Part shown: piece after piece, positions 2,791 through 60,837 of the stretch
Layout of the letters: each line of letters opens with the position of its first letter
Numbering within the stretch: the stretch's first letter is position 1
NCBI GenBank assembly: GCA_037349105.1
Contig: JAYJMM010000124.1
Coordinates: 2,216,001 to 2,280,000 of the forward strand
Reading direction: 5' to 3'
From: Limnomonas spitsbergensis
Lineage: Eukaryota; Chlorophyta; Chlorophyceae; Chlamydomonadales
DNA: 64,000 bases
Position numbers and translations under genes: made by a program
Notes under the pieces: model-generated
Seen by the model: only the letters and a program-made list of their open reading frames with translations
Told to the model about the DNA's origin: nothing
Databases searched by the model: none

Positions 2791-2950
2791 ACCTTACGAA
2801 GACCAGTAAGTAGTAAATCAGTAAGCCACCAAGCCCCCATAATCATCCAAGACAGCCATTGCACCCTCTTGTTCAAAACCATTAAAAACATCTCCTAGGT
2901 CCGCAGCCCTCCACCACGGATGATATCGCGGCGCCTCAGCCCATCTCGAG

Positions 2951-5900
2951 CTACTGGAGGAGCTTGGGGTGGTCGTTCCACAGCCCTTCCCTACGGATGA
3001 TATCGCAGTGCAGCACTGTCGGCTCACTTCGCTCACGCTCCACTGGCTGTCCGTCCGCGCCTGTCTTGACAAACACACGCCGCTTCTGACGGATGACAAC
3101 AGAGCCCTGGGGAAGGTTGGTCAAGCCTAGTTATGGGTTTAGGGTTGGACGGATGACAACAGAGCCCTGGGGAAGGTTGGACAAGCCTAGTTTAGGGTTT
3201 AGGGTTGGACGGATGACAACAGAGCCCTGGGGAAGGTTGGTCAAGCTTAGTTTAGGGTTTAGGGTTGGACGGATGACAACAGAGCCCTGGGGAAGGTTGG
3301 ACAAGCCTAGTTTAGGGTTTAGGGTTGGACGGATGACAACAGAGCCCTGGGGAAGGTTGGACAAGCCTAGTTTAGGGTTTAAGGTTGGACGGATGACAAC
3401 AGAGCCGTAGCGAAGGTTGGACAAGCCTAGTTTAGGGTTTAGGGTTGGACGGATGACAACAGAGCCCTGGAGAAGGTTGGACAAGCCTAGTTTAGGGTTT
3501 AGGGTTGGACGGATGACAACAGAGCCGTGGCGAAGGTTGGACAAGCCTAGTTTAGGGTTTAGGGTTGGACGGATGACAACAGAGCCCTGGGGAAGGTTGG
3601 ACAAGCCTAGTTTAGGGTTTAGGGTTGGACGGATGACAACAGAGCCCTGGGGAAGGTTGGTCAAGCCTAGTTTAGGGTTTAGGGTTGGACGGATGACAAC
3701 AGAGCCGTGGCGAAGGTTGGACAAGCCTAGTTTAGGGTTTAGGGGTGGACGGATGACAACAGAGCCCTGGGGAAGGTTGGTCAAGCTTAGTTTAGGGTTT
3801 AGGGTTGGACGAATGACAACAGAGCCCTGGGGAAGGTTGGACAAGCCTAGTTTAGGGTTTAGGGTTGGACGGATGACAACAGAGCCCTGGGGAAGGTTGG
3901 TCAAGCTTAGTTTAGGGTTTAGGATTGGACGGATGACAACAGAGCCCTGGGGAAGGTTGGACAAGCCTAGTTTAGGGTTTAGGGTTGGACGGATGACAAC
4001 AGAGCCCTGGGGAAGGTTGGACAAGCCTAGTTTAGGGTTTAAGGTTGGACGGATGACAACAGAGCCGTAGCGAAGGTTGGACAAGCCTAGTTTAGGGTTT
4101 AGGGTTGGACGGATGACAACAGAGCCCTGGAGAAGGTTGGACAAGCCTAGTTTAGGGTTTAGGGTTGGACGGATGACAACAGAGCCGTAGCGAAGGTTGG
4201 ACAAGCCTAGTTTAGGGTTTAGGGTTGGACGGATGACAACAGAGCCCTGGGGAAGGTTGGACAAGCCTAGTTTAGGGTTTAGGGTTGGACGGATGACAAC
4301 AGAGCCCTGGGGAAGGTTGGACGAGCGAAGCGTGGGGCACAAGGTTGGAGACAAACGGGCCCGGGCTGTTCTTCTGTGTATGCCGCTCGGGATTATAGGG
4401 TCGGACGAGCGGGGCGTGGGGGCACAAGGTTGGAGATGAGCGGGCAGGCACACCCGGCCTGTTTTTCTGTGTTTACTGCTCAGGTTTCCTAGGGTTGGGC
4501 GGCTGGCCTCATACTTAGGTAAGTCCAAGCAAAAGAAAGAGAAAGTGGGCGAGCAGGAGATTGGACAAGCGGGGAGTGGGCAAGAAGAGCAGAGATGAAC
4601 AAAGGGGGGAACGGGACAAGCAGATCCCACAGGAATAATGGGAGGGGGGAGCAGGGGTCAGGTGGGCATGAGCGGGGTTGAGCGGGGATGGGCGGGGATG
4701 GGGTGAGTGGGAAGTAAGGTCAATGGAAGAAAGAAAGCTATGCCCTGTGGGGGGCGCGAGAGTGAAGGTAACAGCGCAGCCTGGGCCGAAGCCACATCCG
4801 CTCCGTTACCGTAAGGTCAATGACATATGACCACTGGGTCCTCCCCAATAAGGCTCGGCTGTGCGGGCGCCCAACTGCTTGGTCGAGAGAAAAGGAACGT
4901 TATGGCAAGAGAGAAGAAATAATGAGAGGAAGACACAGGATAAGGATAATACCCTCCCCCGCGCAAAGGAAAGGCAGTGGGAGCCAATGTGTGGAGGTGA
5001 GTGCAGATGGTTGGCGAGAAATGGAAACAAGCGGGGACAGGCAGGGTTCAGCTAAAATGAGCTAAGATGACCATGGAAGAGCCTCCTGTTCGAAAAGTCA
5101 GGAGGCTATTTTCCTCCTGACTTTCAAACAGGAGTCTCTTCCTGTTTGGAGAGTCTTCTGAATTTTCAAACAGGAGGCTCTTCCTGTTTGAAGGCTCGTC
5201 CTGCTTGGGGCTGTACCATCTGAGCTGATGCCGACCCACTCCTCAAAGTGGTTTAGCTGAGCGTAGCAATTTGTTTTATTTATTTATTTAGCCAGGCATG
5301 GAGGAGCGCCACACACTATATTTTGAAGCGCTTACACAATTTTGACCTTTTCGAACAGCTACGGCGGCGTGTAGCCGTGCTGTACTTAAATATCTGACTT
5401 GTCTTTGCCACTACGGATCGTCGCAACACTCCCACACCGTTTTGAACGGCTATGACAACGTGCTGTACATAAGATCTGACTTGTCTTTGCCACTGGGGAT
5501 CGGCGCACCACTCACACACCTTTTTGAACTGCTCTGGTAGGGCGTTGTAGTTTATGCCGAATCGCGTGAACAGCAGCTCATTCTTGAACTCAGCGTCAGA
5601 GCCCTTCGCAACAAAGAGTTCAGGGTTTGAAGTAAAGAAAGGTCAAGGTAAACTCAACTTCATAGCCCTGCGTGACCAAGGGTTCAGGGGATGGGAACTT
5701 GGGGTTAAGGTGAACTCTTTAAATCAGTATCAAAGCCCTTGGCGACAGAGTGTTGAGGGTTTGACGTAGAAATGTCCAGATCCACTCAGCATCATAGCCC
5801 TGCGAAACCAAGGGTTCAGGGGACGGGGACTTGGGGTTAAGGCTATCACTGAACTCAAGTGTCAAAGCCCTAGCCAACAAATTGTAAAGGGTTGAAGGTA

Positions 5901-8900
5901 AAAATGTAAGATCCACTCAGCATCATAGCCCTGCGCGACCAAGGGCTCAGGGGATGATAACTTGGGGTGAAGCTTACACCAAACTCAAGTGTCGAAACCC
6001 TGCGCGACCAAGGGCTCAGGGGATGAGGACTTGGGGTAAAAAGCTTAACGCCGAACTCAAGTGTCAAAACCCTGCTTCACCGATGGTTGGTTGGCCAGCG
6101 TGTTAACTTGCAGTCTGCGTCAGAGGCATGCTCGACATAGGATTTGGGGTTCAGGGTTAAGCTGGACACAGCAAAGTATCTCTGGGAAACAAAAGGTATG
6201 CCCCTCCTACCTACAATGGCATGTACATCTCATCTCCATCCACGAGCATACAGCTAAATGTACACCATGACACAGATCCAAGCACCGGCGTCAATCAGGT
6301 ACAAAGATCCCCCAGGGCTTTCTGTGGCTCAAAATTTGATCTAGATCCAGGCTCAAAGATCCCGCAGGGACCCCACTGGCTTAAACACATATCTAGATCC
6401 ATGCTGTCTACACCCACAGATCAGCCTGGGAGGGGCCAACCCGTCAGCATCTCAGCTTCAGCCCATGCTCTTTATTATTCCATACTTGTTTCAATCGATG
6501 GATGCCTGAAAGCGTAAATCTTAAACCCTGAACCGAAACGTCGTTGCAGGACAACTCATTTCGTTACCTACCAGTAGTAATAATTGCACATGTTCTGTGC
6601 CTGTGACTGCGCATGGGAAACGTGCTCCTGCTGATACGGCATCAACACCACAACCACTCAAAGCAGCTAAACAAAATGCCAGGGGGGTCAAACCAGCTCT
6701 GTGTCCACAAACAGCACATGCATACGGCTGACCGAGTGGCTTCCTTAATCCACGCCCCAGAGTATATTGATTTATAACCGGTATTTAATATCATTAATGA
6801 TTTATTATTCATTGCTTACTTAATGTCAGTTGCCAGTCGTATGAACGCTATTGCAGGGAAACGGTTTTGACTCTTGAAGCGAGTCTTGGCTGCAGCCATG
6901 TTCACACCATAACCACACCTACCTTGAGCTCCTCCTGGGCCTGAGCAGGCGTCATCCCGCCCTTCTGCACCAGCGCCCAGAAGCACGTGTTGTACTGCAA
7001 GGGGGGGTTCCACACATTTATACGTATTGAATTGCAATGGGAGATTTCACACATTTACACGGGTGGTACTGCAATGGGAATTTCACACATTTACACGTGT
7101 TGTATTGCAATGGGAGATTTCACACATGTACGCATATTGTACTGCAGCATGGAATCTGTGAAAGACGCTGGCATAGACCCGCCCTTCTGCACTATATCCC
7201 AAACAATCTATGGCAGCCTGTTGTACTACAACATACAAGGTCACACGTATTGTACTGCAGCAACATATGACAAACACATTACTCTGCACACCGGGATGGG
7301 AAGTTTATCACACTACACTGCAGCCTCCCTCAAGCTGCCTCACCAGTACACTCCCCCACCCACCAGCCGCCTGTCCACCCGCAGATACCCCCACCTGGTT
7401 GTTGATGTGCATGTCCACCACTTGCCATGTAGAGCAGCCAACCGCTCTAACAAGCTGCCTCACAATTAGACTCCTCCGCCCACCAGATCACTAGATTTAG
7501 CCCCTCCACCCGCAGATACCCCCACCTGGTTGTTGAAGTGCATGTCCACCACTTGCCATGTAGAGCAGCCAACCACTCTCACTAGCTACCTCACAATTAG
7601 ACTCCTCCACCCACCAGATCACTAGATTTAGCCCCTCCACCCGCAGATACCCCCACCTGGTTGTTGATGTGCATGTCCACCACTTGCCCTGTAGAGCAGC
7701 CAACCACTCTCACTAGCTACCTCACAATTAGACTCCTCCGCCCACCAGATCACTAGATTTAGCCCCTCCACCCGCAGATACCCCCACCTGGTTGTTGAAG
7801 TGCATGTCCACCACTTGCCATGTAGAGCAGCCAACCACTCTCACTAGCTACCTCACAATTAGACTCCTCCACCCACCAGATCACTAGATTTAGCCCCTCC
7901 ACCCGCAGATACCCCCACCTGGTTGTTGATGTGCATGTCCACCACTTGCCATGTAGAGCAGCCAACCACTCTAACAAGCTGCCTCACAATTAGACTCCTC
8001 CGCCCACCAGATCACTAGATTTAGCCCCTCCACCCGCAGATACCCCCACCTGGTTGTTGATGTGCATGTCCACCACTTGCCCTGTGGAGCAGCCAACCAC
8101 TCTAACAAGCTGCCTTACAATTAGACTCCTCCGCCCACCAGATCACTAGATTTAGCCCCTCCACCCGCAGATACCCCCACCTGGTTGCTGATGTGCATGT
8201 CCACCACTTGCCCTGTAGAGCAGCCAACCACTCTCACTAGCTACCTCACAATTAGACTCCTCCACCCACCAGATCACTAGATTTAGCCCCTCCACCCGCA
8301 GATACCCCCACCTGGTTGCTGATGTGCATGTCCACCACTTGCCCTGTAGAGCAGCCAACCGCTCTCACTAGCTACCTCACAATTAGAATCCTCCGCCACC
8401 AGATCACTAGATTTAGCCCCTCCACCCGCAGAAACCCCCACCTGGTTGCTGATGTGCATGTCCACCACTTGCCCTGTAGAGCAGCCAACCACTCTCACTA
8501 GCTACCTCACAATTAGACTCCTCCGCCCACCAGATCACTAGATTTAGCCCCTCCACCCGCAGATACCCCCACCTGGTTGCTGATGTGCATGTCCACCACT
8601 TGCCCTGTAGAGCAGCCAACCACTCTCACTAGCTACCTCACAATTAGACTCCTCCGCCCACCAGATCACTAGATTTAGCCCCTCCACCCGCAGATACCCC
8701 CACCTGGTTGCTGATGTGCATGTCCACCACTTGCCCTGTAGAGCAGCCAACCACTCTCACTAGCTACCTCACAATTAGACTCCTCCGCCCACCAGATCAC
8801 TAGATTTAGCCCCTCCACCCGCAGAAACCCCCACCTGGTTGCTGATGTGCATGTCCACCACTTGCCCTGTAGAGCAGCCAACCACTCTCACTAGCTACCT

Positions 8901-11900
8901 CACAATTAGACTCCTCCGCCCACCAGATCACTAGATTTAGCCCCTCCACCCGCAGATACCCCCACCTGGTTGCTGATGTGCATGTCCACCACTTGCCCTG
9001 TAGAGCAGCCAACCACTCTCACTAGCTACCTCACAATTAGACTCCTCCACCCACCAGATCACTAGATTTAGCCCCTCCACCCGCAGATACCCCCACCTGG
9101 TTGCTGATGTGCATGTCCACCACTTGCCCTGTAGAGCAGCCAACCACTCTCACTAGCTACCTCACAATTAGACTCCTCCGCCCACCAGATCACTAGATTT
9201 AGCCCCTCCACCCGCAGATACCCCCACCTGGTTGCTGATGTGCATGTCCACCACTTGCCCTGTAGAGCAGCCAACCACTCTCACTAGCTACCTCACAATT
9301 AGACTCCTTCGCCCACCAGATCACTAGATTTAGCCCCTCCACCCGCAGATACCCCCACCTGGTTGTTGATGTGCTTGTCCACCACTTGCCCTGTAGAGCA
9401 GCCAACCACTCTCACTAGCTACCTCACAATTAGACTCCTCCGCCCACCAGATCACTAGATTTAGCCCCTCCACCCGCAGATACCCCCACCTGGTTGTTGA
9501 TGTGCATGTCCACCACTTGCCCTGTAGAGCAGCCAACCACTCTCACTAGCTACCTCACAATTAGACTCCTCCACCCACCAGATCACTAGATTTAGCCCCT
9601 CCACCCGCAGATACCCCCACTTGGTTGCTGATGTGCATGTCCACCACTTGCCCTGTAGAGCAGCCAACCACTCTCACTAGCTACCTCACAATTTGACTCC
9701 TCCGCCCACCAGATCACTAGATTTAGCCCCTCCACCCGCAGATACCCCCACCTGGTTGCTGATGTGCATGTCCACCACTTGCCCTGTAGAGCAGCCAACC
9801 ACTCTCACTAGCTACCTCACAATTAGACTCCTCCGCCCACCAGATCACTAGATTTAGCCCCTCCACCCGCAGATACCCCCACCTGGTTGCTGATGTGCAT
9901 GTCCACCACTTGCCCTGTAGAGCAGCCAACCACTCTCACTACCTACCTCACAATTATACTCCTCCACCAGATCACTAGATTTAGCCCCTCCACCCGCAGA
10001 TACCCCCACCCCACCTGGTTGTTGATGTGTGTGTCCACTTGTCGCCAAGCAAGGTAGTCCTTCACAATGTTCTCCGCGGGGTACAACACCGCCCTGCCGT
10101 CAAACACTGGGGAGGCCAGCATGGGCCTGACGAGCAAGTCAGGGAGTGAAGAGCTCAGGGGTGAGGGTTTAAGGACTGCAAATATATGGGCGTCTGAATC
10201 AGGAGGAGTTCAGAACGGTGCATACCCGCTGGGCCCTGCTGAACGCTCGGCCACGTGGGGCTTATAGGGAATGACTAGGCTCAATTCCAGCTACCATGCA
10301 CAGCCTGGGCCATGGTGCAGCCATACCTTCCTCCTTGTGAGGTGGAAGGAACATGGAACCCGGCGTTGTAGGCGGGGGGAGAGAAGATTGTCTGGCGGGT
10401 TCGATCCCTGAATCGGGGGGAAGTGTGGGCATTTGATCCCCTGGGAAGGTCCAACGGTGTGGAAAGCACTCACTTGTTTCCCAAGATCCCCCCCCCTTAT
10501 GTTTTCCCAACGCTAAAATGCCTGAACTTGCATTGTACGGTTGGTATCAAAGGCTCGACTAAGAAAGGGCAACCTCGGAGAACAAGGCTCACCTTTCAGC
10601 GCCCATCAGGTCGGCCCATTGGCGGACGTAGTGGGAAGTGAAGCATGAAGTGACCAGAGAGACCAACTTGGAACTGCGGCGACCTGAGGAGAGGAAAGCG
10701 AGGTGTTGCGTGCATGTTAGGGTCTGGAGGTGCCAAACTGGCCTGACAAACCAGCTTGGAGATGCGACAGTCTGAGGAAAAGAAAGAGCAGGGGGCGATT
10801 AGTACGACATGCATGTTTAGGGCCTGGAGGTAAATAAGTGGGACGATACCAGCTTGGAACTGCAGCGGCCTGTGGACAGGAAAGCGAGGTGATGCCTGCA
10901 TATTAGGGTCTGGAGGTGCCCAAGTGGCCAGATAAATCATCTTGGAATTGCGACTGTCTTAGGGAAAGAAAGAGCAGGGATCAAGAATACCAAGGGCTTG
11001 GGTGGTTAAGGGTTTAGGGTAAAGAGTTAAAACCCTAAAGAAAGAGCGGGGATCAAGAATAACACGAGCATGTTAAGGGATTTGAGATGCTGCCCACAGT
11101 GCATTATAAATTAATTAGTAAATCAATACGCAAACAAGTGCGTGGGTAAAGGAAGCTGCCCATTAGGCCAAACTATGGGAGATGGATACTGTGCGTTACA
11201 CAATACACACATCAATACCTGTTCAGGCAAGCCCTGGCAAGCACGCGTTTCTGGAAGGAACCAGATAATTTTGATCAATAGGGTCTAAGGGGAACAAATC
11301 GTAGCGGATCGTATGAAGCTACAAATAAAGCAATTTCAGACACTCTCTCCTGACATGCGGATATCTGTCGGGTTTGACAAAAAATGCAAACATTATCTTG
11401 CTGGCCAAAACCAAAGATGCCCTCTTCATGTCTGTTTGTGCCTGAAGGGTACAAATCCCCAGACCCTTATACACACAATTTTCAAAACTCTCACACAATA
11501 CGAGTGTACCCAGGAAAGGGCCCATCACGCTTAAAGCCTGAGCCCAAAGATCTACACCCGCGTCCTCACCATATATGCTGGTGTCTTTGTGGAAAACGAA
11601 GCTGAACTCGTCGCTCTGACCAAACGCGATGCGGATATCAGGGAACTCAGACAGAACTGCCTGCGACGTCAAAACAGAAAATAAATTGGGAGTAAGGGGC
11701 AGGAATACCGCAGCATAACACGACACGCAGCTGCCAGGGAACCCTGGCTGCACGGCCTACCAGGGGCGTGCATTGGCATGGGAGTTGGATGTTCCACAGG
11801 GTTAGGAAGGCTGTTGAGGCCTGGAGGGGGTAAATTTACACCGCTGCACACACATCACTCCCACATCACACTTGTCACACACTCACACATCCGCCTTCTG

Positions 11901-22721: not shown

Positions 22722-25700
22722 ATGAACTTGTGCGATATGCGGAAGAGCTGCGTGCAGCTCATGTCTGGTGGCTCGAGTCTGGCGGGCAGCATTCGGGTAT
22801 CGGCTCCCGCGACCGTATCATCTAGACGTCAGGCCTACAGCCTGGGAGTGTCGTCATCAGTCCGAATGGTGAGCCCACTCCTGGAAACCTTTGATACGCT
22901 CGCTGCACCATGCCGCGCTTTCCACTGTAGATTTGCTGCATTCATGCATGTAACCTCCCCAGCCATCCATGCAATGGCATATCCAGCGTGACTACAGCAC
23001 ACTACCGATAGATGTATGCCCGAACTACATGCCTCCCACTTCCCACTCACCCCTGGCTGGCTCGCACACACTTTTATAAACTCTTAATCTTTGTCATCGC
23101 CACAGGCTGCTTTCAGTCACATGGACTCGGTCGACCTCAACCTCAAGGTAAACAGGACTAACTTACAACACCGTCGATTGATCAGAAATCGAGAGCAAGC
23201 ATGACCAGCTAAGGGGATAGACTTGCATGGCATGCCCATGATGAACCCACCACTTGATCTTTACGTGATCAGGAGCGCGTTCCTTGCCGCCTAGAAGAAA
23301 CCTTGTGTATATGAGGGATAAAGCGATGAGCCCCACTATCCTAGGGTTCTTTGTTTATTATGTTGTGCATGTGATGGAATTCTTGGGGGCATGGCGGAAA
23401 TGTGAGAGCGTACATGCATGGGTAAGCCACAAAAAATACGGGAGGGGGCCTGTTTCTGAAGCCTTTAACCTGCCCCTTGCTGGTAGTTTGAGTCAAATTT
23501 CCGTTTAATGCGGATGGACTCAAGCAAAATGATAGTGTGAATGATGAAGGGCCCACTTGATCATGTCACTCAATGCCCATTGGACCATGTATGTGCAACT
23601 TCGGTCTAAGATTGGATTTCATAATGCTTGAAGGAGAATACGCGTCGGGTGCGGGCGCCAATTAAGAATGACATCCTCGAGCCACACACCTTCACTGCAG
23701 ACGTGCAGTCTTTTAAGGTGAGAGCCACAGGTTTTAGAACTGGGGTGCCGGTGAGAGCCACAGGGTTTAGAACAGGGGTGCCAGTGAGAGCCACAGGGTT
23801 TAGAACTGGGGTGCCGGTGAGAGCCACAGGGTTTAGAACAGGGGTGCCGGTGAGAGCCACAGGGTTTAGAACTGGGGTGCCGGTGAGAGCCACAGGGTTT
23901 AGAACTGGGGTGCCGGTGAGAGCCACAGGGTTTAAAACTGGGGTGCCGGTGAGAGCCACAGGGTTTAGAACAGGTGTGCCGGTGAGAGCCACAGGGTTTA
24001 GAACTGGGGTGCCAGTGAGAGCCACAGGGTTTAGAACTGGAGTGCCGGTGAGAGCCACAGGGTTAAGAACTGGGGTGCCGGTGAGAGCCACAGGGTTTAG
24101 AACTGGGGTGCCGGTGAGAGCCACAGGGTTTAGAACAGGGGTGCCGGTGAGAGCCACAGGGTTTAGAACAGGGGTGCCGGTGAGAGCCACAGGGTTTAGA
24201 ACAGAGGTGCCAGTGAGAGCCACAGGGTTTAGAACAGGGGTGCCAGTGAGAGCCACAGGGTTTAGAACTGGGGTGCCGGTGAGAGCCACAGGGTTTATAA
24301 CTGGGGTGCCGGTGAGAGCCACAGGGTTTAGAACAGGGGTGCCGGTGAGAGCCACAGGGTTTAGAACAGGGGTGCCGGTGAGAGCCACAGGGTTTAGAAC
24401 AGGGGTGCCGGTGAGAGCCACAGGGTTAAGAACAGGGGTGCCGGTGAGAGCCACAGGGTTTAGAACAGGGGTGCCGGTGAGAGCCACAGGGTTTAGAACT
24501 GGGGTGCCGGTGAGAGCCACAGGGTTTAGAAGAGGGGTGCCGGTGAGAGCCACAGGGTTTAGAACTGGGGTGCCGGTGAGAGCCACAGGGTTTAGAACTG
24601 GGGTGCCGGTGAGAGCCACAGGGTTTAGAACTGGGGTGCCGGTGAGAGCCACAGGGTTTAGAACTGGGGTGCCGGTGAGAGCCACAGGGTTTAGAACAGG
24701 GGTGCCGGTGAGAGCCACAGGGTTTAGAACTGGGGTGCCGGTGAGAGCCACAGGGTTTAGAACAGGGGTGCCGGTGAGAGCCACAGGGTTTATAACTGTG
24801 GGTGAGAGCCACAGGGTTTAGAACAGGGGTGCCAGTGAGAGCCACAGGGTTCAGAACAGGGGTGCCGGTGAGAGCCACAGGGTTTAGAACTGGGGTGCCG
24901 GTGAGAGCCACAGGGTTTAGAACAGGGGTGCCGGTGAGAGCCACAGGGTTTAGAACAGGGGTGCCGGTGAGAGCCACAGGGTTTAGAACAGGGGTGCCGG
25001 TGAGAGCCACAGGGTTAAGAACAGGGGTGCCGGTGAGAGCCACAGGGTTTAGAACTGGGGTGCCGGTGAGAGCCACAGGGTTTAGAACAGGGGTGCCGGT
25101 GAGAGCCACAGGGTTTAGAACTGGGGTGCCGGTGAGAGCCACAGGGTTTAGAACAGGGGTGCCGGTGAGAGCCACAGGGTTTAGAACAGGGGTGCCGGTG
25201 AGAGCCACAGGGTTTAGAACAGGGGTGCCGGTGAGAGCCTCAGGGTTTAGAACTGGGGTGCCGGTGAGAGCCACAGGGTTTAGAACAGGGGTGCCAGTGA
25301 GAGCAAAGAAAGAAAGTAAGAAAGCTACGCTCCGTGGGGGGCGTGAGAGTTAAGGAAAAAGCGCAGCCGGGGCCGAAGCCATATCCGCGCCATTCCCGTG
25401 AGAAAAAGAAGACACATCATAATTGATTACATACGGCGGCTTACGGTTCTGATTTGTTTTCCGGTAAGAGCATAGACAGCTGCTAGTTACGACCCTAGCT
25501 GTATGCCTGTATCTAAACTGTATTTTGTGACATGCAGGTTGGTATTCTGGACGCTTTTTCAACTCGTGGAGATCTTTGGATTGTATTTGTTTCTTCCGAT
25601 TCCTGTGAGAAATTATAAGGAATGGAAGGATTACAAAGGGGGAGGGGAGGGGAGAAAACTGCGCCACCCTGGCTATGGGCATGTTGGTTCCGGGAACATC

Positions 25701-27549
25701 GTAGGTTGGGGCCGAAGCCACATCCGCACCGTTACCAACAAGCGAGAGCGGCGGCTTTATATTGTTTGAGACCAATTAAGGACACCGACAAGCTCACATG
25801 TAGTGGAATTTAAATACTACAGAGCAGGGCCGTTTTCAGTGTTATCTGAATAAATCTTGGTGAAAGGAATGTGGCAAGTTGCTGAAGAGCGTGTTGCACT
25901 GCCGTCGCAGGCGCTGAAATATTCCCGATCCTAATAAGAAAGAAAGAAAGCTGGAAAGAAAGCTAATTGATCCTTATTGATTTTATCGCTTTTGTTACCT
26001 TGCGCCTGGACCTCGTCTTCGCCGAATTATTTGTTTAGCTACCACTTTGGTTTGGACTCGGTAACTACTGAATAATCTCAGCTACAGGGACACTGATCCG
26101 AGGGATCAACTTTCCGCATGCTACAGCCAACACACGGAGCCAGATAGTACTGTGATTGTGCTTTTACCCTTTTGGAATCCTGGGGTTTTGACCTTTTGGA
26201 ATCCTGGGGTGTTGATTGTATTATTAACCACCTAAGTAATTGCTTCATATATGATTGCCAATATGTACTAATGACAATATTTTAAATTGTGTGCCCATTA
26301 CCCCAAGATTGGAGATGTGGTTGAGGGCGTGGTGTTGAGCATCAAAGGAAACGTAGCGTACGTGGACCTTGGAAACGGAAATATCGGGTGCTTAAACCAA
26401 GGCGAGATCAGTCACAAGCGCATCGTCAAGATCGACACGGTCTTACAAGAGGGGGTTAGGCTCAAGGTGCATGAGTGAGAAGGGATTTAGTTGTTATGAT
26501 AGTGGGGATGTGAGTGGGGTGGTGTACGTGGCGGAACAAGCGCCATCGACACGGTCTTACAAGAGGGGGATAAGCTCAAGGTGCATGAGAAGGGATGCGT
26601 GGGGGTGAATAAGGAGGCATGTGACTGAGTGAGATATACGAGGTTGAAGACTTGGGCGAGTACGGTATATAGGGTTTAGGATTCAAAAATAGCGTTACCC
26701 CAACCCCTAAATTCCAAATCCTACCAAAATCTCAAAGTGTTTTGTCATGTAGGTCATGATTTGGAAGCTTGATCCGGAACTAGGCCGCGTTACGCTTTCA
26801 ACAAAGAAGCTGGAGCCCTCATCCGGTGACATGTTGAGAGACCCACAACTTGTGTTTGAGAAGGCTGAGGAAATGGCAGCGCGGTACATGGGATCCTTAC
26901 TTGTGAGTCTAATTACGTAATTTAAGCATGCAAACATTTTCAATTATCTTATGCTTAGTTTTCCCTTTTGTTCTGGTAAGCAACTATATGAAAAACAATT
27001 GAATGAGACTACAAATACATACAATATGTGGGGGGTTTTAATACCCTGAGGTTCTCACAACAAGCTTTTCGGCCTGTCGATTCAGCAACCATAACCAAAC
27101 ACGAAGCGGGCAAAGTTGATGATGACCCATCAAGTGCAACATTTTAAGGGTTCACACTTATTTTGGCAAGCAGGCGTTTTCCGGTTAAACTTTCTCCAGC
27201 ATTTTGTCTTCTTAATCTGACTTGAAATTGTTTCTTGTAGGTAAAGGAGCGCAAGCAGGCAGGATTATTGGCCAACAACAAACAGGGGACCAACATCTCC
27301 AACGCAAGATTGCAAGATTCCAAGGTAGGGTATTGGGTAACTGAAAATGACAGTTTCAAGGCAATTAGCCTGTGCACAGTACCAGGCCAAGGTTGCCAAC
27401 TACTGATGGTGTTTCAAGACCCTAGCTATTATTTGTCAGCCTTTTTGGGCTACGTTGTCCACCTGCCTGCTGCATGGCAAAACTGCACATGCAGTGGTTG
27501 GAATGCAGACATGCTCCAGTTGTATCACAGGTTTGTGTCACGCAGCTGA
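22722..27549 (+). CDS. Plastid ribosomal protein S1-like protein
   Basis: Exons: 22722-22868 (49 codons, Ser/Arg/Ala-rich, transit-peptide-like, [20 protein letters not shown]), 23106-23147, about 23634-23717 ([11 protein letters not shown]), 26308-26466, 26753-26902, 27241 to 27324 or to the stop at about 27549. All recognised junctions are phase 0. Exons 4-5 give one S1 RNA-binding domain ([40 protein letters not shown]) and the C-terminal signature of plastid/cyanobacterial S1 ([35 protein letters not shown]). Known plastid S1 proteins have three S1 domains; I find only one, although intron 3 spans 2.6 kb. Either a single-domain paralogue or unrecognised exons. Expected role: mRNA binding on the small plastid ribosomal subunit. 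Intron 3 is dominated by a 33-bp array and intron 4 has a junction copy. Confidence 0.75.
23718..25305 (+). repeat. 33-bp minisatellite starting exactly at a splice donor
   Basis: About 48 units of GTGAGAGCCACAGGGTTTAGAAC(T/A)GGGGTGCCG. The first unit begins at the donor of S1 exon 3 (CTTTTAAG/GTGAGAGCC), so every unit carries a donor-like GTGAGA. One unit is shortened near 24800. Because 33 is a multiple of 3 the array stays open on both strands for nearly 400 codons; those ORFs are artefacts. Confidence 0.95.
25307..25400 (+). repeat. Dispersed repeat (copy of 4736-4830)
   Basis: AAGAAAGCTACGCTCCGTGGGGGGCG... to GGCCGAAGCCATATCCGCGCC matches 4736-4810 with about 85 percent identity by eye. 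A partial third copy is at about 25700-25740. Confidence 0.65.
26530..26600 (+). repeat. Copy of the S1 exon 4 donor junction
   Basis: ATCGACACGGTCTTACAAGAGGGGGATAAGCTCAAG/GTGCATGAG repeats the end of exon 4 and its donor (26431-26475) about 110 bp downstream, with few differences. Confidence 0.9.
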
Positions 27550-30500
27550 TTAACGCAGAAGCAGTATTGAAGTGGTAGCAACGAAGTCGACGAACTGAAA
27601 CAATTTACTTGGTGTCACATTTCCTGTATACGGTATCGAGTATGTTACACCTTTGGGCCCTCAACTCATGTATGCATGCAACGGCCCATGTTGCAATGAG
27701 GGTATCCTTGCAAGACAGCTGAGCAGTACACGGCAGACGTTGTTCATCAACTAAAAATGAAGGAAACACCGCACAGTGGGTGCTGGAAAGCAGGCAGAAA
27801 GACGGCAAGCAACAGCGCCCTACTGTAAATCCACATAAGGTCCGTGCAGTAAAATAAACGAAATTTTCGCCGCACAGCAAATAAAAGAATGGCCGCACAG
27901 CCGCGAAATTTTAATCCAGTTTCAATTACATTTTCGGGCTGCAGGTACCGGTACTTTAATTTAACGTCGCACATCCGTTGAATAATGTTAATTTCCGCTC
28001 GCGCAGCACTTTCAGCCGGTACATAAAAGTCAGTGAAATTGTTGTGCGTCCAACTGGCCTGTTCGGCACTGCTGCCACCCTCACACTGGCCTTCTCAGTT
28101 TCTCAAGTTCAGCAGCGTCCGCATCCTCACTTTCCGTTCCTTCCTCGCCTCGCGCGCCTGGCTGGTCCTGCTCGTCCTTGCTGAGCACACTAGATTGGGC
28201 AGATCGGCTATAGATGGTTGTTTCATTGGCGCATTAATACCGGATGCAATGAGCCGCATCACCCTGATGTGACAGACCGTAGAACTGTTGTTAACTATCG
28301 CTGACCGAGCATAATCCCGTTAGTTAACAACGGTTGTACGGTTTGCCACGTCAGGTAAGAGGCGTTAGCGAGCCGAGCAGGTTGTATGCCAACAAGAACT
28401 AATTAATTTTGAGCAAAGTCCATCTGAATCTACGGGACACGACTGCGGGCAGAGACAAGTAAGTAACATTTCGGATTTATAGTGTTCCACCAGGAGTTCT
28501 CACGTTTGGTTATCTGCTCTTAACGTCCTCTTGTAGCTGAAGGTGCACGCATAAGTGGTAATTATTTGCCCTTGCACAGATTGTGGAATGACTAAATATT
28601 GAGGGCAACGAAATTGCTGTCAGTTTACCCCCCTGGCTTCAAATTAAAGGGCATAAAGCTTAGCCGATGCATGAAGCCCATTTTATGACTAGGAAGACCT
28701 CCCTCATTTAGTATCGCATTTTCCCATGCTGAAATAAAGGCATAAGGCCACTGTGCATGGGCAGTTTTTGTGCCCGAGGCCGGGCAAGAATGGCAACGAA
28801 CCTTGTTTCGAATTCGCACTGTGAGTTATGATTGACCCGTTTTATTTGAGGTCGCTCACTGTGGCATGACGGAAATCTCATTGAGAGGTTCACTTGAGCT
28901 CTGGTTTTTGTGGGGAACTGACATGGTCCAGCCCAAGTCTAGCATCCTCAAAGTCAGATTGCCGCAAAAACAGCCAGCTTTAACGGGAGCCCCCCTGCCC
29001 CCTCTTTAAAAATTACCCCCCATGGATGAGACCGGGGGGGATAAAACGACTAGTTGTAGCAATTCAAGGGCTAACCCTGAGCATTACACAGTGAAGGGAA
29101 AATGTATGTATGGATGGGGGAGGCCTGGGAGGTAGGGCATGATGAATGGGCTTCCACTCATGCTTGTCTTCGCGCTGCTGGAATCAAGTTCTACATGTGG
29201 TCGGGGTTCAGTTTCACTCTGTCACCTTGGGACTAACTAATCTCGCATTACTCAAGTTGTGTTTTGTCATGAGCGCAGCAAATCAGTCGAGATATGATGA
29301 CGGAGAAATTGGCTGGTACCAAGTTGCCTGACGATGACGAGTTGACAGGGCTACCAAATGAATCAACAAACCTCAAGCTCAACGAGTGAAGGGAAGCTTT
29401 CCCTAATGCCCCAGAAGAAATCACAAAAGTGGCGAGCCTAGCGAGCCTTGCTAGGCCCTTGGATCAAGCGACACAGGGTTTATCTCTGACATGGAGGAGA
29501 CAACAAAGGGTTGATGAACATGCTTGGGAATGCCGTAATTGGGTCAAGTAAATAGTTGTGCACGATTGTAGTAAAATCCGACTAATACACGCTTGCATGT
29601 ATGGACCAATTTACGCTACACGCTTGCATGTGGACCAATTCATGTTCGCCATGTAGATGCCAGGTTTTCAATGAGCAACCCCTTATATATTTGCATGTGG
29701 TGGTTCAAACGTAAAGCCTACAGAACCGCTGGGTGCTCGAGCATAAGATTTGCAACATCAGCCAAATCTAGCCCATGTTTTTTGAATCCTTGACTTTTCC
29801 ACTCATACGGATAGGGCGGGCGGGCTCCGTTATTTTTCTTGTTTTCTTCTTTTAGTCACATATTTTCCACTTATTGACCTAGTTTAGTTTGAGTTGTTTC
29901 CTCGTCGCAAGCCGGATGGTTTAGGTACGACCTATGGTTCGCATTTACTTAGTCCACACCCATTTTCCTCCCTTCTGAACAGTTGGGCGCCCACGCGGCC
30001 GAGCTTTGTGCGGGCCCAGAGGTGTAACGTTATTGACTTAGTCCACACCTACTGTAAATGCAATCAACGGTTCATGTCATGACGTTACACCTCTGGGCCC
30101 TGCTAAAAAAGATCGGCCGCGTGTGCGCCTAACTAAAGGGGGCAAACAAAAAAACGAGAAGGGGAGAAAAAAGTGAAATGACAGACAGAAGGCTGGAAAA
30201 GAAAGGCGAAGGAAGGCAACGGTTCATGTATTTATTTATGTTGGTGGCTTGCATAGGCCATGTCTTGCATGCATGGGTGCATCACTAGATGCATTGATGG
30301 CATGCTGCGGAGCAGATGGACAAAATTTGTGGGTGGCGGGCGTTAGTGGAGCTCAAGGTTACTCCGCCCCATCCAGCTCAACCAGTATGGTGGCCCGAAC
30401 GAGAGCACGTGGGCATACCAACCTTATTTTGCGGGGTAGGTGGTTAGCCATCCCAACAACGTACACAAACACTTATAAATGTTTGCGGTCACTCCGACCA

Positions 30501-34269: not shown

Positions 34270-35815
34270 CTGCTTTAGAGCTTATCACTGCCCTAGTCCC
34301 CCTGCCCTATTCCCTCTGCCTATTTGCCCTGTCCTAGCCCTTCTGCCCTAATCCCCCTGACCTAGTCCCCCTGCCCTAATCTCCCTGCCCTAATCCCCCT
34401 GCCCTAGTCCCCCTGCCCTTATCCCCCTGCCCTAATCCCCCCTGCCCTTATCCCCCTGCCCTTACTATCCCCCTGCCCTAACCCCCCTGCCCTTGTCCCC
34501 CTGCCCTAATCCCCCCTGCCCTTATCCCCCTGCCTTAACCCCCCTGCCTTAATCCCCCTGCCCTAATCCCCTTGCCCTAATCCCCCTGCCCCAATCCCCC
34601 TGCCTTAGTCCCCTTGTCCTAATCCTCATGCCCTAATCCCCCTGCCCTTATCCCCATGCCCTAATCCCCCTGCCCTAATGCCCCTTCCCTAACCCACCTG
34701 CCCTAATCCCCCTGCCCTAATCCCCCTAATCTAATCCGCTTGCCCTAATGCCCTTGCCCTAATGCCCCTGCCCTAATCCCCCTGCCCTAATGCCCCTGCC
34801 CTAACCCCCCTGCCATAATCCCCCTGCCCTAATCCCCCTGCCCTCACTTATCCCCCTCCGCTAATGCCCCTGCCCTAATGCCCCTGCCCTAATCCCCCTG
34901 CCCTTATCCCCCTGCCTTAACCCCCCTGCCTTAATCCTCCTGCCCTAACCCCCATGCCCTAATCCCCATGCCCCAATCCCCCTGCTCTAATCCCCCTGCC
35001 CTAATGCCCCTGCCCTAACCCCCCTGCCGTAATCCCCCTGCCCTAATATCCCTGACCTAATCCGCCTGCCCTAATGCCCCTTCCCTAAAGCCCCTGCCCT
35101 AATCCCCCTGCCCTAATGCCCCTGCCCTAACCCCCCTGCCGTAATCCCCCTGCCCTAATCCCCATGCCCTCACTTATCCCCCTGCCCTAATGCCCCTGCC
35201 CTAATGCCCCTGCCCTAATCCCCCTGCCCTAATGCCCCTGCCTTAACCCCCTGCCCTAATCCCCCTGCCCTAATCCCCCTGCCCTAATCCCCCTGCCCTA
35301 ATGCCCCTGCCCTAATGCACCTGCCCTAATCCCCCTGCCCTAATGTCCCTGCCCTAGCCCCCCTGCCCTTGTCCCCCTTCCTAATCCCCCTGCCCTAACC
35401 CCCCTGCCTTAATGCCCCGGCCTTAGTCCCCCTTCCTATTCTTCCTGCCCTAATCCCCCTGCCTTAATGCCCCGGCCTTAGTCCCCCTTCCTAATCTACC
35501 TGCACTAATCCCCCTGCCTTAATGCCCCTGCCTTAGTCCCCCTTCCTAATCTACCTGCCCGAATCTTCCTGCCCTAATGCCCCTGCCTTAGTCCCCCTTC
35601 CTAATCTACCTGCCCTAATCCCCCTGCCCTAATCCCCCTGCCTTAATGCCCCCGCCTTAGTCCCCTTTCTTTATCTACATGCCCTAATCACCCTGCCCTA
35701 ATCCCCCTGCCTTAATGCCCCTGCCTTAGCCCCCCTTCCTAATCTACCTGCCCTAATCCCCCTGCCTTAATGCCCCTGCCCTAGTCCCCCTTCCTAATCC
35801 TCTTGCCCTATCTGT
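34270..35815. repeat. CCCTAAT-rich satellite, about 1.5 kb
   Basis: More than 100 units of roughly 12-14 bp of the form CCCTAATCCCCCTG with variants (TTAACC, TTAGTC, CTTATC). The reverse strand reads (CAGGGGGATTAGGG)n and resembles a degenerate telomere-like G-rich repeat, but is not a true TTTAGGG tract. It replaces the pol region of the element to its left. Confidence 0.9.
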
Positions 35816-35997: not shown

Positions 35998-36290
35998 ATA
36001 GCAAAGAGTGCCGCAGACACATGATAGCAAAGAGTGTTGCAGACACATGATAGCAAAGAGTGCCGCAGACACATGATAGCAAAGAGTGCTGCAGACACAT
36101 GATAGCAAAGAGTGCCGCACACACATGATAGCAAAGAGTGCCGCATACACATGATAGCAAAGAGTGCCGCAGACACATGATAGCAAAGAGTGCCGCAGAC
36201 ACCGACATGATAGCAAAGAGTGCCGCAGACACATGATAGCAAAGAGTGCCGCAGACACATGATAGCAAAGAGTGCCACAGACACATAATA
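35998..36290. repeat. 26-bp minisatellite, about 11 copies
   Basis: Unit ACATGATAGCAAAGAGTGCCGCAGAC. Copies are nearly identical, with one unit carrying 3 extra bases (near 36200). No exon or gene is recognised beside it. Confidence 0.9.
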
Positions 36291-36299
36291 GCAACACAG

Positions 36300-39003: not shown

Positions 39004-39580
39004 TCAGGTATCGTTGCACCGTTCAAGTGCTGATTCCTCCTCCTCCCTTGCTGCTTCCTTGGCCACCTTGGCCCTTCTGGCAACCACCCTCGGGGTGACG
39101 TTGGCCTCTCCCCGGCCAGTGGTGTACGAGATGTCGTACAACCCGTTCGCCATTGGCCTTGCCATGCCCCGCTCCATTTGCCGTGTGGCCGGGTTGGTGG
39201 CCATAACCTCCACCTCAGGTATATCCATGATGTCGGTGTTTGGGGCCGCCCTGGCTGCGCTCTGGCTCTGCAGCGGGCCCTGCTATCTCAGCGGGCCCAG
39301 CTTCCTTGTCTTCCGGCTGGCACCTCGGGCACAACCATTCGCCCTCAGGCACCTCCTGAAGTGCTGGTACCAAGCAATCCATGTGCCAACCTGTGTTGCA
39401 ACCATCGCACAACAGCATCACATCTCTGCGATCTGGAAGTTGGCACACCTCACAAGACAGGCTGTTATTGGGCCTGGTTCCACTGAAATCAATCACTCCC
39501 CTGAGATTGGGCAAGTGGCATGGAGAACAATTGACAGCATTCTCTGTTACTGTGAGGCCATCTGCCCCCTCCAGAACCAA
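39004..39580 (-). pseudogene. PHD finger at the C-terminus of the integrase polyprotein
   Basis: The frame starting near 39580 (LVLEGADGLTVTENAVNCSP) continues the integrase ORF after a small insertion that shifts the frame near 39575-39583. It then encodes a complete C4HC3 PHD finger: CEVC, CDGC, GWHMDC and CPRC, with WH in place. After another shift near 39220 a charged tail follows (MERGMARPMANGLYDISYTT and an Arg/Ala/Glu-rich helix). PHD fingers bind histone H3 tails, so a targeting role comparable to the chromodomains of other Ty3-type integrases is a reasonable inference. Confidence 0.8.
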
Positions 39581-41324
39581 TGAAGGTTCCCGTCGCCCCC
39601 AGCTGTTTCACCCTTAGAATCTCAGGCCTAGCCTTGGGATCGAGGCTGCGGCGCTCAGATGAGTACCTCACATACACGTAATCTCCCTCTGCGAAACGCC
39701 TGACCTGGGGGACATACCCTCCCCCACGGATGCGCGCATACCGCAGCTTGTCGCGGTGCTGCGCAATTTTCAGATGCTCACCCGCGACAGGCAGTGCCTC
39801 CTTGATCCTGGCCACCCTGGCCAGGAGCAGGTCTGCCGCTTCCTCCGCTGTTGCCACCTTGGCCGTGTTCCACAGGTCCGCCCCCACTCTGGAGGGAAAG
39901 GTGGGTCTCTGCCCGAACAGAACCTCGTATGGCGCCATGCGCGTGGCCTGCTGCGGCGAGCAGCGGAAGCCTAGGGCTACCCAAGGCACCATTTTGTCCC
40001 ACGACTCGTCGCTGCTGCCCTCCTCGCAGCACTTGCGCAGGCCTGCCTTGAGGGTCTGTACAGCCCTTTCGGACAGCCCGTCTGCCTGGGGGTGGTTGGC
40101 AGAAGTGGTGCGGTGATCAATGAAGCAGTCCAGCAACATGTCTTGAAATTCACCCTGGAACTCTGTTCCCTGGTCTGTCACCACCTCTGCGCAGCCCCCG
40201 AATCTTGCGACGACATTCTGAAAGAAAGCCAAGGCCGTCACATCTGACGCCTTGCTAGGAATGGGGATCAACTCCACCCACTTGGAGTAATGCTCCACAC
40301 ACACCATCACAAACCGATTGCCCCTGGGAGTGGTCGTGAATGGCCCACAAAGATCCACCCCCCATCGGAAAAACAACCCTTCGATGGGTAGCGGGTGCAG
40401 GTCGGGCTGTGTGTGATTGAACGTGGACGCCCTGGCCCTGTCACACACACCGCATTCCTGCACCACCCTTTTGACTGCTGCTCTGAGCCCCTGCCACCAG
40501 TGTTGCTGCATGACCATGAAAGCCGTGCGATGGCTGCCAAAATGGCCTGTACCCGCATGGGCTTCCTGGATCACTGCCAGCCTGTCCTCTGGCCTGGGCA
40601 CCACGCAACGTCTAACGTCGGGCATGAGTCTCATTAGTACTCCTCCCCTCTCTGACTCCCACTGGAATGGAGCGGCTCTGCGCTGTACCCTGGTCTGCTC
40701 TCCTATCTCTGTTCCTGGAGCATGTGTTTTCTCGCGGAGAAACCGCAACACAGGCTCATCGGCACACACATCCACTCTGGCCGACGGCCCTGCAGGACAT
40801 CCATGGGGTTCTTTCTCACTCCCTTTGTCCCCTGTCACATCGCTGCCAGCATCTGCTTTTGCCACAGGCGGGTTCCCACCTGGCTCTTGTGCTGCGTCGG
40901 CCCAATCTGCCGCAGCAGACTCTCCCAGGCACTGCCTGTACGACGCGGCTACTTCATCACTGCCAGAGCACGTGTTTCCTGCGGTGGCAAGGGCGTAGTG
41001 GCTGGACATTAAAGTTGCACCAAGCGCAGGATCCCTGTCCGGACCCTGCAGCCGTGCTCTGCGTTTCAACTCCTCTGGTATGATTTTAGCACACGTGAGC
41101 GCGACATTGAGCCATGCTCCTAGTGCCCATGAATCCATGCTCCTGCCCAAGGCTGCCCTCCTGGCAGCCTCTGGAAAGTCTGGGCGGGGCAATGTGGATC
41201 CCACAGCGTACCCCATGGCACGTTCACGCTCATTTGCATTGGGCTCCTGTAGGTCTCCCATGGATCTGAATACCATCCCATTTTGCCCGTTCCTGAAAGA
41301 ATATGATGCGGGAGTTGCCATCAA
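39489..41324 (-). CDS. Methyltransferase C-terminus fused to Ty3-type integrase
   Basis: A 611-residue open frame. Residues 32-70 resemble motifs IX-X of C5 methyltransferases (ERERAMGY, then ALGRSMDSWALGAWL). Residues 185-245 are the linker typical of Ty3-type pol before integrase (ADEPVLRFLR..., VMRLMPD-like). The zinc-binding H2C2 domain follows (H256, H261, C291, C294: HAGTGHFGSHRTAF, QECGVCDRA). The catalytic core has D324 (WGVDLCGPF), D384 (VVTDQGTEF) and E419 (HPQADGLSER), the D,D-34-E triad. The C-terminal part has the KLRYARIRGGGYVPQ and GDYVYVRY segments. The frame therefore carries methyltransferase and integrase as one polypeptide, where reverse transcriptase-RNase H would normally precede integrase. 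Confidence 0.88.
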   Translation of the reverse strand: MMATPASYSFRNGQNGMVFRSMGDLQEPNANERERAMGYAVGSTLPRPDFPEAARRAALGRSMDSWALGAWLNVALTCAKIIPEELKRRARLQGPDRDPALGATLMSSHYALATAGNTCSGSDEVAASYRQCLGESAAADWADAAQEPGGNPPVAKADAGSDVTGDKGSEKEPHGCPAGPSARVDVCADEPVLRFLREKTHAPGTEIGEQTRVQRRAAPFQWESERGGVLMRLMPDVRRCVVPRPEDRLAVIQEAHAGTGHFGSHRTAFMVMQQHWWQGLRAAVKRVVQECGVCDRARASTFNHTQPDLHPLPIEGLFFRWGVDLCGPFTTTPRGNRFVMVCVEHYSKWVELIPIPSKASDVTALAFFQNVVARFGGCAEVVTDQGTEFQGEFQDMLLDCFIDHRTTSANHPQADGLSERAVQTLKAGLRKCCEEGSSDESWDKMVPWVALGFRCSPQQATRMAPYEVLFGQRPTFPSRVGADLWNTAKVATAEEAADLLLARVARIKEALPVAGEHLKIAQHRDKLRYARIRGGGYVPQVRRFAEGDYVYVRYSSERRSLDPKARPEILRVKQLGATGTFIGSGGGRWPHSNRECCQLFSMPLAQSQGSD

Positions 41325-41340
41325 GCAGGGCAGCAGTCAC

Positions 41341-52850: not shown

Positions 52851-52922
52851 TCACGAGGCAGCAGTGAACGTGAAGTTTCACTGCGCACAGAAGACACTAT
52901 AACCCCTATAAAGGGCACTTAG

Positions 52923-53462
52923 CACTCCAAAACCTCACCATGTCCATGACCAGGCTGTGTCCACATGGCTCATGTTTAAATAATCTTATGAGTCTTGACT
53001 CAAGCTATGTCCCCGGTTCATCCCTTCCCCGCAGATCTCGCGTCGAAAGCGAGCGAGTGCTACTCCAAGTGGGTGGCAGTGTTTCCTTGAAGGACGACTT
53101 TGCCGCTGAGCACTCATGGGCTTACAGCGCACCTGGAGCGCTCGGCCCTGCTGGTCAGGGACTGGTAATCGACAGTGACCGCGGCCTATCTGACCTCACT
53201 ATTTTGGAGAGAGAACGCTGCATGGGTTACATGGATAATTGCACTGCTGCGCCAGGTATTTCTTTTGCCGCCAGGCACAACCTGACTGGCAGTGCATTTG
53301 ACGCGAACTCGGTGAGTCACTTGATAGCAAGTAGCAACTGGTCTTGCCATCCGTCTCACCTGTGACCGCGGGCCCATTTCTTTCACGACTTCGGTTGAAG
53401 CCATGCCTGGTCCTGAGCTGGGGGGGGAGAGCAATCAGGAGCATCAGGAATTGCATGACAGG
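52923..53462 (+). pseudogene. Methyltransferase C-terminal fragment, plus copy
   Basis: The open frame (LDSSYVPGSSLPRRSRVESE, then DLTILERERCMGYMDN and LTGSAFDANSVSHLIASS) aligns with motifs IX-X at the start of the methyltransferase-integrase ORF (ERERAMGYAVGS, ALGRSMDSWALGAWL). The segment recurs in inverse orientation at 56221-56765 with nearly identical sequence, and its left end is preceded by CTCCAAAACCT in both copies. Confidence 0.75.
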
Positions 53463-55422: not shown

Positions 55423-56220
55423 TGTCACGACGTATGGGTGCACCGCACGTATGGGTGGCTTGTACCGCTTTTTGGTTTCGGATTTCGTCTGTTTGTGGTA
55501 CTTAGAAGATGCCTGGCTAACTCCAGGCATTCTTCTCTTCTTACTCAAGTAACATACCGAAGTTGAATCACCCTGCTATCTGTAAACTGTTCTGGGATTA
55601 ACGTCCAATTGTGATATTTCGGCCTCTTATCAAGGCCAGGACACTGCACTAACAGGAGATCTCTAGTTTACACTACACTGATCCTATTTCTCCAAGACCA
55701 CATCATTCAGTAATAGGCCATGATCGTTACACTGATCGAATATCTCTAGTTAACCACTACACTTATTCGTGATCTCTAGCATCAGCTTCTCTACTTCATC
55801 CATCTCAGCTCTATCTCTCGATTAAACCCTACACTGTGAGCTTCAACAGTTCTATCTCTAGGCTATAACTCGACACTGTGAGCTGCTACCCAAGCCTTTC
55901 CTGGCTACCAAGTCGATTTACTGCACCAGCAGTCGATCCTCCTCATCAGAGAGTCGCCTCTTCGGCTCCACATTTCTCATCACTTCGGCTGGATCGACTC
56001 TCAAGTCCGTTCCACACCATTTCCTACTGTCAAAAGTCGGCTTCAGTACAACTAGCCCCAGCAGGAACGAGTTCACTTCGCTACTTTTGTCAACAGTAAG
56101 AGAGGAATCATCAAAGGTTAGTGCAGTAACCCGAGGATTAGTCGAGGATAAACTGTCTGCCAGCAGTTTATCGCTCCTGCACACGCTAGTTAACCCCTAT
56201 AAAGGGCACTTAGCACTCCA
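55423..56220 (+). repeat. LTR of the nested element, plus orientation
   Basis: 798 bp, begins TGTCACGACG and ends AGCACTCCA (TG...CA). The reverse complement of 60838-61634 (797 bp) is almost identical. A TATAAAG occurs near the end (CCCCTATAAAGGGCAC). Confidence 0.9.
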
Positions 56221-56788: not shown

Positions 56789-56969
56789 AGGCCGCCCAGA
56801 CCAACTGCTGGCGGTTGGGACACTATTTCCTGAAAGCGTGGTCCAAATACATGTCGGGTTAAAAGCGCTCAGAGCGCTAGTCAGGCTGTGGGACTATTGA
56901 AGGAGAACATGTCAGACAAACCAGCGCACGACACGGAGTGGGACGGGGGTCTACAACACGGAACAATTA

Positions 56970-60711: not shown

Positions 60712-60837
60712 GAAATTGGGATCTGTTCGCTGTTATCGCTCACTTTTCGGCAACAGAACACGATCAGGAACCTTACTTCCGGTTTTTACTCGCCAGCAGA
60801 TTCGAAGTGATGCGAACCTGGATTCTTCTCTTCTTAT

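Follow-up and report, generated by a model that had tools for sequence, protein, structure and literature searches.

Copies of exon margins inside the adjoining intron have been described in chicken as "exon stuttering", in which lateral parts of an exon, together with its donor or acceptor, are copied through the intron (Genome Biol Evol 2026, PMC12954441). As set out in the portions of that report drawn on here, the chicken set covers 115 genes with 236 affected introns, of which 190 are on dot chromosomes, with exon parts of 20-187 nt (median 36) and 1-44 copies; the same portions report stuttering for birds, mention gerbils as data not shown, and link it to GC-rich sequence. A second related case is the potato RdRp gene, where, according to the part of the account used here (PMC4974935), a tandem duplication crossed an intron-exon border, and part of the exon in its upstream copy was turned into intron. 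Among the open-access literature matches listed, we found no other report of the pattern and none from outside vertebrates, and absence there is weak evidence.

Here we analyse the pattern in the green alga Limnomonas spitsbergensis, at the THG1 gene and its neighbours in one window (the whole 64,000-nt stretch of DNA analysed) and at protein-kinase loci elsewhere in the genome. As in exon stuttering, a lateral exon part and its splice site are copied in imperfect tandem into the adjacent intron, with the coding exons of THG1 intact; the exon parts measure tens of nucleotides (mostly 11-52 nt here), with 1 to about 20 copies; the copies are proximal rather than distal; and the blocks, in THG1, are imperfect and tens to hundreds of bases long. 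The two systems differ in setting, as the alga has a GC content of 53-54% and shows the pattern on many contigs, whereas chicken stuttering is concentrated on GC-rich dot chromosomes (microchromosomes), which is an avian association and not a structural feature. They also differ in frequency: 20% of sampled exon edges here versus 3.4% of dot-chromosome introns in the excerpted chicken report, figures obtained with different thresholds and screens, ours being the more sensitive. The third feature of exon stuttering is extensive variation in intron length within a species; the alga is known here from one assembly. On these likenesses of sequence the algal pattern would belong with exon stuttering, and we have filed it as such. 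The potato case, so far as the consulted part describes it, differs in that a new intron arises, whereas the algal introns lengthen and THG1 shows no newly created intron ends. Ordinary intronic minisatellites share the tandem units of 10-190 bp, the variable copy number, the homogenisation and the block pattern of the acceptor-9 array, but differ in that the unit here contains coding sequence and a splice site.

The sequence-only reading from which this work started held that the nine-exon THG1 gene could be solved exactly, and the model bears this out: it lies on the minus strand (14110-2951), has nine exons and eight introns that are GT-AG throughout, and encodes 260 amino acids in frame with no internal stop. 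The protein matches the Pfam domains Thg1 and Thg1C, PDB 3otb matches residues 1-259 (E 4.5e-80), and in an alignment with 11 homologues, indels at the junctions never exceed one residue; together, these results support the exon ends (Table 1). The nearest named homologue is that of Chlamydomonas eustigma (75% identical), and a Thg1 family profile search of the genome gave a single place above threshold, within this window. The introns sum to 10,377 bp of the 11,160-bp gene, and the GC content is 52.9% for the gene and 54.1% for the window.

Table 1. Gene models, exons and junction-associated repeats in the window (positions are those of the 64,000-nt stretch).
Feature	Position	Strand	Details
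THG1 exon 1	14082-14110	-	start codon at 14110; gene model, Pfam, PDB, homologue alignment
THG1 exon 2	13149-13223	-	gene model, homologue alignment
THG1 exon 3	12331-12403	-	gene model, homologue alignment
THG1 exon 4	11570-11660	-	gene model, homologue alignment
THG1 exon 5	10593-10683	-	gene model, homologue alignment
THG1 exon 6	10015-10126	-	gene model, homologue alignment
THG1 exon 7	6923-6994	-	gene model, homologue alignment
THG1 exon 8	5520-5603	-	gene model, homologue alignment
THG1 exon 9 including stop	2951-3106	-	gene model, homologue alignment
THG1 donor 2 degenerate family	12803-13165	-	offset 173; 17 nt of exon; 200-nt match
THG1 donor 3 family	11923-12369	-	unit 119 bp; 22-39 nt of exon; copies 12183, 12064, weaker 11945
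THG1 acceptor 5 family	10659-11072	-	offset 186; 25 nt of exon; copy 10869, weaker 10771
THG1 donor 6 array	7325-10038	-	unit 131 bp; 20 intronic copies, 9882-7394; 24 nt of exon
THG1 acceptor 7 array	6984-7146	-	unit 37 bp x 4.4; 11 nt of exon
THG1 acceptor 8 family	5582-6075	-	unit about 132 bp x 3.2; 22 nt of exon; copies 5667, 5737, 5799, 5869, 5930
THG1 donor 8 family	5376-5536	-	unit 82 bp x 1.9; 17 nt of exon; copy 5437
THG1 acceptor 9 array	3088-4326	-	unit 60 bp x 20.6; 19 nt of exon; 20 intronic copies, 3166-4306
Exon 9 segment copy just past THG1 stop	2900-3006	-	offset 77; aligned piece does not span the stop
Gene model B	14891-17332	+	six exons, open and in frame
Gene B donor 16542, copied at 16880	16525-16890	+	17 nt of exon; gene without homology support
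Gene B repeat spanning stop codon	17302-17476	+	score 37 vs best 30 in 500 shuffles
Gene C, SnRK2-like kinase	18102-21264	+	gene model
Kinase C acceptor 18977, copy 53 nt upstream	18918-19005	+	29 nt of exon
Kinase C donor 19184 (GC-AG intron), copied at 19446	19160-19454	+	24 nt of exon
Gene D, chloroplast ribosomal S1-like	22722-29389	+	gene model
Gene D donor 26467, copied at 26581	26431-26596	+	36 nt of exon

Firm junction-spanning copies, scoring above every shuffle in two tests, are found at 7 of the 16 THG1 junctions (donors 3, 6 and 8; acceptors 5, 7, 8 and 9); one of these tests took the junction's own intron as target and demanded a score of at least 16 that beat all 60 dinucleotide shuffles. 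The same seven junctions reach a score of at least 30 when exon edges are compared with introns, as described below. The copy of donor 2 is well supported: a gapped self-BLAST match of 200 nt at 68% identity (59.9 bits) includes 17 nt of exon, and the score of the short query was equalled in 2 of 300 shuffles. The copy of donor 1 is weak (a 15-nt match only, with a score of 25 against a best of 22 in 300 shuffles), and the remaining seven junctions have no copy in their own intron by the shuffle-controlled test. The junctions listed in the sequence-only reading (donors 2, 3, 6 and 8, acceptors 5, 7, 8 and 9, with donor 1 as weak) were therefore right by shuffle tests and self-BLAST; its count of at least six affected introns out of eight is reached by including donor 2, and becomes seven with donor 1 as well, but the evidence is firm in only five. 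It gave 2 to 20 copies and unit lengths of about 40 to 131 bp; the measured values are 2 to about 20 copies and units of 37-186 bp. Tandem Repeats Finder places six arrays on or directly beside THG1 junctions, with units of 60, 82, 132, 37, 131 and 119 bp; they span 4,970 of the 11,160 bp, almost wholly within introns; the earlier proposals that the arrays arose separately from different junctions, and that introns grow through such duplication, are both supported.

The threonine of DTHIN is present in exon 6 and in every one of the 11 homologues, but most copies in the donor-6 array encode methionine at this position, so that it is the copies, not the exon, that diverged and were homogenised afterwards. 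A pattern of variants recurs along the acceptor-9 array and, judged by eye, suggests block duplication of several units. Most acceptor-9 units also carry the telomere-like TTTAGGGTTTAGGG (plus strand), and all 16 double copies of it in the window fall within 3088-4326. Long-read assembly may misstate the copy number of arrays of 20 copies, which is the point in favour of reading the pattern as an assembly artefact in repetitive sequence; we give that reading hardly any credence, as the copies are diverged, the coding frames are intact, and the pattern is present in four gene models of the window and at 15 of 77 kinase loci.

Three further gene models, B, C and D, were built on the plus strand, making four with THG1 (Table 1). 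Gene B has no Pfam domain, and no homologue of it was found among 7997 scored candidates. In gene C, intron 2 (donor 19184) is apparently of GC-AG type (CAG/GCAAGA), and the model there is four residues longer than plant SnRK2. Queries that joined 12 nt of intron to at most 60 nt of the exon were compared with the adjacent intron end, using a cut-off score of 30. This score was reached at 11 of 44 exon edges with their own intron, as opposed to 1 of 924 pairs with other introns of the four models (Fisher 5e-15, the distal pairs not being independent), and chance is excluded as the cause of the copies in the window. For introner elements, in which introns of different genes share similar sequence, the comparison covered exon-edge queries and gave this one distal match. 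The 11 positive edges come from all four models and from 9 of 22 introns, comprise 6 donors and 5 acceptors, and all 11 matches cross their junction; with the unsupported gene B left aside, 10 of 34 edges are positive. A shuffle criterion passes 13 of 44 edges, adding THG1 donor 1 and gene D donor 3, the latter nearly without an exon part. Two of the positives, kinase acceptor 2 (offset 53) and kinase donor 2, were found by local alignment and missed by BLAST self-comparison. At the exon 3 donor of the S1-like gene (AAG/GTGAGAG) begins an array of 48 units of 33 bp (23717-25304) that contains no exon part.

Beyond the window, the pattern was examined at protein-kinase exons located genome-wide by HMM (140 matches). 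From these, 78 loci with 1.5-kb flanks were taken in score order, with some places skipped and with repeats playing no part in the choice; one (L059) was excluded as the same gene as L004, which leaves 77, and a few others probably share genes (L014 and L028 overlap). Splice sites were placed at 91 of 154 kinase edges with a weight matrix derived from the 22 window introns, the 63 edges below the score threshold being excluded; five of the first 69 kinase cores contain an in-frame stop (L007, L015, L022, L053 and L070) and were kept, L053 being among the positives. Outside the window the sample thus represents one gene family.

At 18 of these 91 edges (20%), from 15 of the 77 loci, the adjacent intron carries a copy of the exon edge no more than about 500 nt away, and at 16 of the 18 the copy spans the junction. 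Donors were positive at 11 of 41 edges and acceptors at 7 of 50. Distal pairs between loci were positive in 39 of 4090 cases, a figure probably inflated by paralogous kinase exons, and segments 70-142 nt inside the kinase exons, used as an exon-interior control, in 2 of 90. With the score unchanged, a coarser test that dispenses with splice-site calling was positive for 23 of 138 edges and for 32 of 2070 distal pairs, and for 0 of 108 segments from exon interiors; a coarse positive at L010 proved spurious when inspected. The kinase rate does not differ from that of the window (20% vs. 25%; Fisher P 0.51). Junction copying is not confined to THG1. That gene stands at the extreme end: in the first 30 kinase loci, 4.7% of the sequence lies in tandem arrays. 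The GC content of 69 kinase loci is 53.2%.

Whether the junctions themselves attract duplication depends on how often repeats would fall on them by placement alone. According to the sequence-only reading, ordinary minisatellites have no reason to sit at splice sites; this assertion is not supported, given the weak kinase excess and the copies past stop codons reported below. In the kinase sample, 10 of 34 tandem families near an edge (units of 15-230 bp) cross the junction, compared with 6.05 expected from random placement over 512 nt (P 0.056); a family at L058 that contains exon sequence but does not span the junction was excluded from this test. The expectation rises to 8.12 (P 0.27) if introns of 300 nt are assumed, while restriction by unit length gives 10 of 28 vs. 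5.89 (P 0.046) for units of at least 30 bp and 9 of 23 vs. 5.60 (P 0.078) for units of at least 50 bp. In the window, 9 of 19 families cross (3.75 expected, P 0.003). As the window itself was picked for the pattern, the independent kinase sample weighs more.

A hand-compiled list of window families, which mixes detection methods, shows how strongly the outcome depends on the intron length assumed at founding. With array-free intron lengths, 12 of 22 families cross against 4.3 expected (P 8e-5), and with current lengths the excess reaches P 6e-7; founding introns of 300 nt give 8.4 expected (P 0.047), those of 200 nt give 10.9 (P 0.36), and the range from 100 to 200 nt runs from P 0.99 to 0.36. 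For units of at least 50 bp, the counts are 9 of 10 vs. 6.5 (P 0.067) at 200 nt and 10 of 11 vs. 5.5 (P 0.004) at 300 nt. The 12 crossing families carry 11-39 nt of exon in their units and are thus not wholly intronic. Median intron lengths of Chlamydomonas relatives are given as 198-343 bp (PMC8226300, in the part used) and the mean for Limnomonas as 788 bp (PMC11228838, likewise), a mean and medians that are not strictly comparable. Duplications of 50-190 bp in genes whose introns measure a few hundred base pairs would leave many survivors straddling borders with no targeting at all, and such a duplication would be tolerated because the outermost copy stays functional.

The exon parts are short. 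In 22 families they measure 11-49 nt, on average 0.32 of the possible length (P 0.002 vs. uniform), the two longest pieces lying outside this set; for the kinase loci alone the fraction is 0.37 (P 0.08). When 13 kinase edges were re-measured by gapped alignment, using longer stretches of exon as queries, 11 had pieces of 33-52 nt; the piece at L073 measures 86 nt, and that at L058 extends from 13 to 92 nt and does not span the junction; long exon pieces exist but are rare. The longer pieces, together with the results for units of at least 50 bp, moved the odds slightly toward targeting of junctions. Under that explanation, duplication would be directed to exon-intron junctions by transcription- or splicing-linked breaks or by polymerase stalling at borders. 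It draws on the window excess, on the hand list as a whole and on its units of at least 50 bp at 300-nt introns, on the independent lean of the kinase sample and on exon parts of mostly 11-52 nt; it is countered by the P value of 0.056 in that same kinase sample, which weakens to 0.27 if introns were then about 300 nt, by the involvement of both donors and acceptors, by past-stop copies in two of four models, and by the 24 of 35 kinase-locus families that lie in introns only. We regard targeting as unlikely. The special status of junctions, and with it the earlier idea that duplication is prone to start there, is not established: the kinase sample leans toward an excess but gives no firm evidence of targeting. 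A more specific version, in which border seeding is linked to splicing or transcription, the short exon part is the footprint of the machinery, and the mechanism is common to birds and algae, likewise seems to us improbable.

We consider it probable that the junction copies of THG1 (7 of its 16 junctions) and of the kinase loci (16 of 91 edges) are random tandem duplications that were tolerated and then expanded as minisatellites. First, a tandem duplication of roughly 40-190 bp would strike anywhere in a gene. Second, selection would remove duplications that break the message; the duplications that are found lie inside introns, straddle a single border and leave their surplus copies in the intron, lie past a stop codon, or are in frame within an exon. 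Third, some families have grown to 20 copies that are closer to each other than to the exon, presumably through expansion and homogenisation. Fourth, the spliceosome would still take the outermost site, probably by exon definition, as the exon stretch in most decoys is limited to 11-52 nt; the rarity of longer pieces would have the same explanation. Tolerance is supported by the local, junction-spanning position of the copies, by a crossing rate in the kinase loci close to the neutral one, by the copies past stop codons, and by hits at both donors and acceptors with few in exon interiors (0 of 108 and 2 of 90); the window excess, the short exon parts, the kinase lean, the offset of 142 in gene B described below, and start codons without copies (0 of 4 gene models) speak against it.

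The ends of the coding sequence bear on this reading. Coding-sequence copies past the stop codon occur in two of the four models, one being the unsupported gene B; that of THG1 scores 40 against a best of 25 in 500 shuffles. Such copies indicate that the pattern is not specific to splicing. The junction-crossing copies of the window above shuffle level sit on the intron side. A single exon-internal tandem duplication was found in the supported genes, in exon 4 of the kinase, and its offset of 57 preserves the frame; gene B exon 3 holds a weak exon-only pair whose offset, 142, is not a multiple of three.

We examined 64 decoys in THG1, B, C and D, of which 56 keep their GT/GC or AG and 8 have lost it, and found that 63 of the 64 would cause a frameshift or a stop if used. 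Since nearly all decoys break the frame, yet the THG1 protein is conserved with no inserts at its junctions, the outermost splice sites are presumably the ones used in THG1. The shortness of the exon part may then reflect selection against decoys with enough exon for recognition; a bias of breakpoints near junctions would fit equally well. The same decoys speak to the earlier idea that repeated splice sites were selected as a buffer or regulator of THG1 splicing. The 56 retained dinucleotides, the GT kept in 20 of 20 donor-6 copies and the array of the S1-like gene (23717-25304), where 33 of 48 donor-like sites keep the frame, the true one included (32 of 47 decoys), would suit a buffer; conservation, however, is predicted without selection from the mutual similarity of array copies, AG is retained in 15 and lost in 5 of 20 acceptor-9 copies, nearly every examined decoy is disruptive, and the same pattern occurs in other kinases and in the S1-like gene. 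A selected buffer is unsupported and, in our judgement, very unlikely. Use of decoys in the S1-like array would insert multiples of 11 residues.

The inclusion of AG/GT borders in the duplicated units also recalls the Rogers model, in which an intron is born by tandem duplication of an exon segment containing AGGT, and the sequence-only reading had offered this as a possible origin. The intron ends do not support the proposal: none of the eight THG1 introns has a donor region that resembles its acceptor region, only 1 of 22 introns was flagged (48 nt, in the unsupported gene B), and the copies sit within introns instead of at both ends. Intron birth by this route is highly improbable here.

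If the assignment to exon stuttering is right, the phenomenon extends to many genes of a green alga with ordinary GC content and is likely a general route of intron growth where tandem duplication is frequent. The arrays supply natural constructs that set a single true splice site against up to 20 near-identical decoys, and would allow a direct test of exon definition; the placement test provides a quantitative null for claims of repeats on splice sites.

Beyond the gene models, the window contains an array of 108.6 units of 14 bp (34288-35810) and a neighbouring one of 11.3 units of 26 bp (35998-36294). A long minus-strand open reading frame (39489-41336) resembles, by eye, a retroelement integrase, and more retroelement-like reading frames lie beyond it. 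Oppositely oriented, near-identical reading frames at 52874-53365 and 56321-56893, together with another inverted pair (55862-56242 and 60834-61196), suggest by eye nested or inverted mobile elements.
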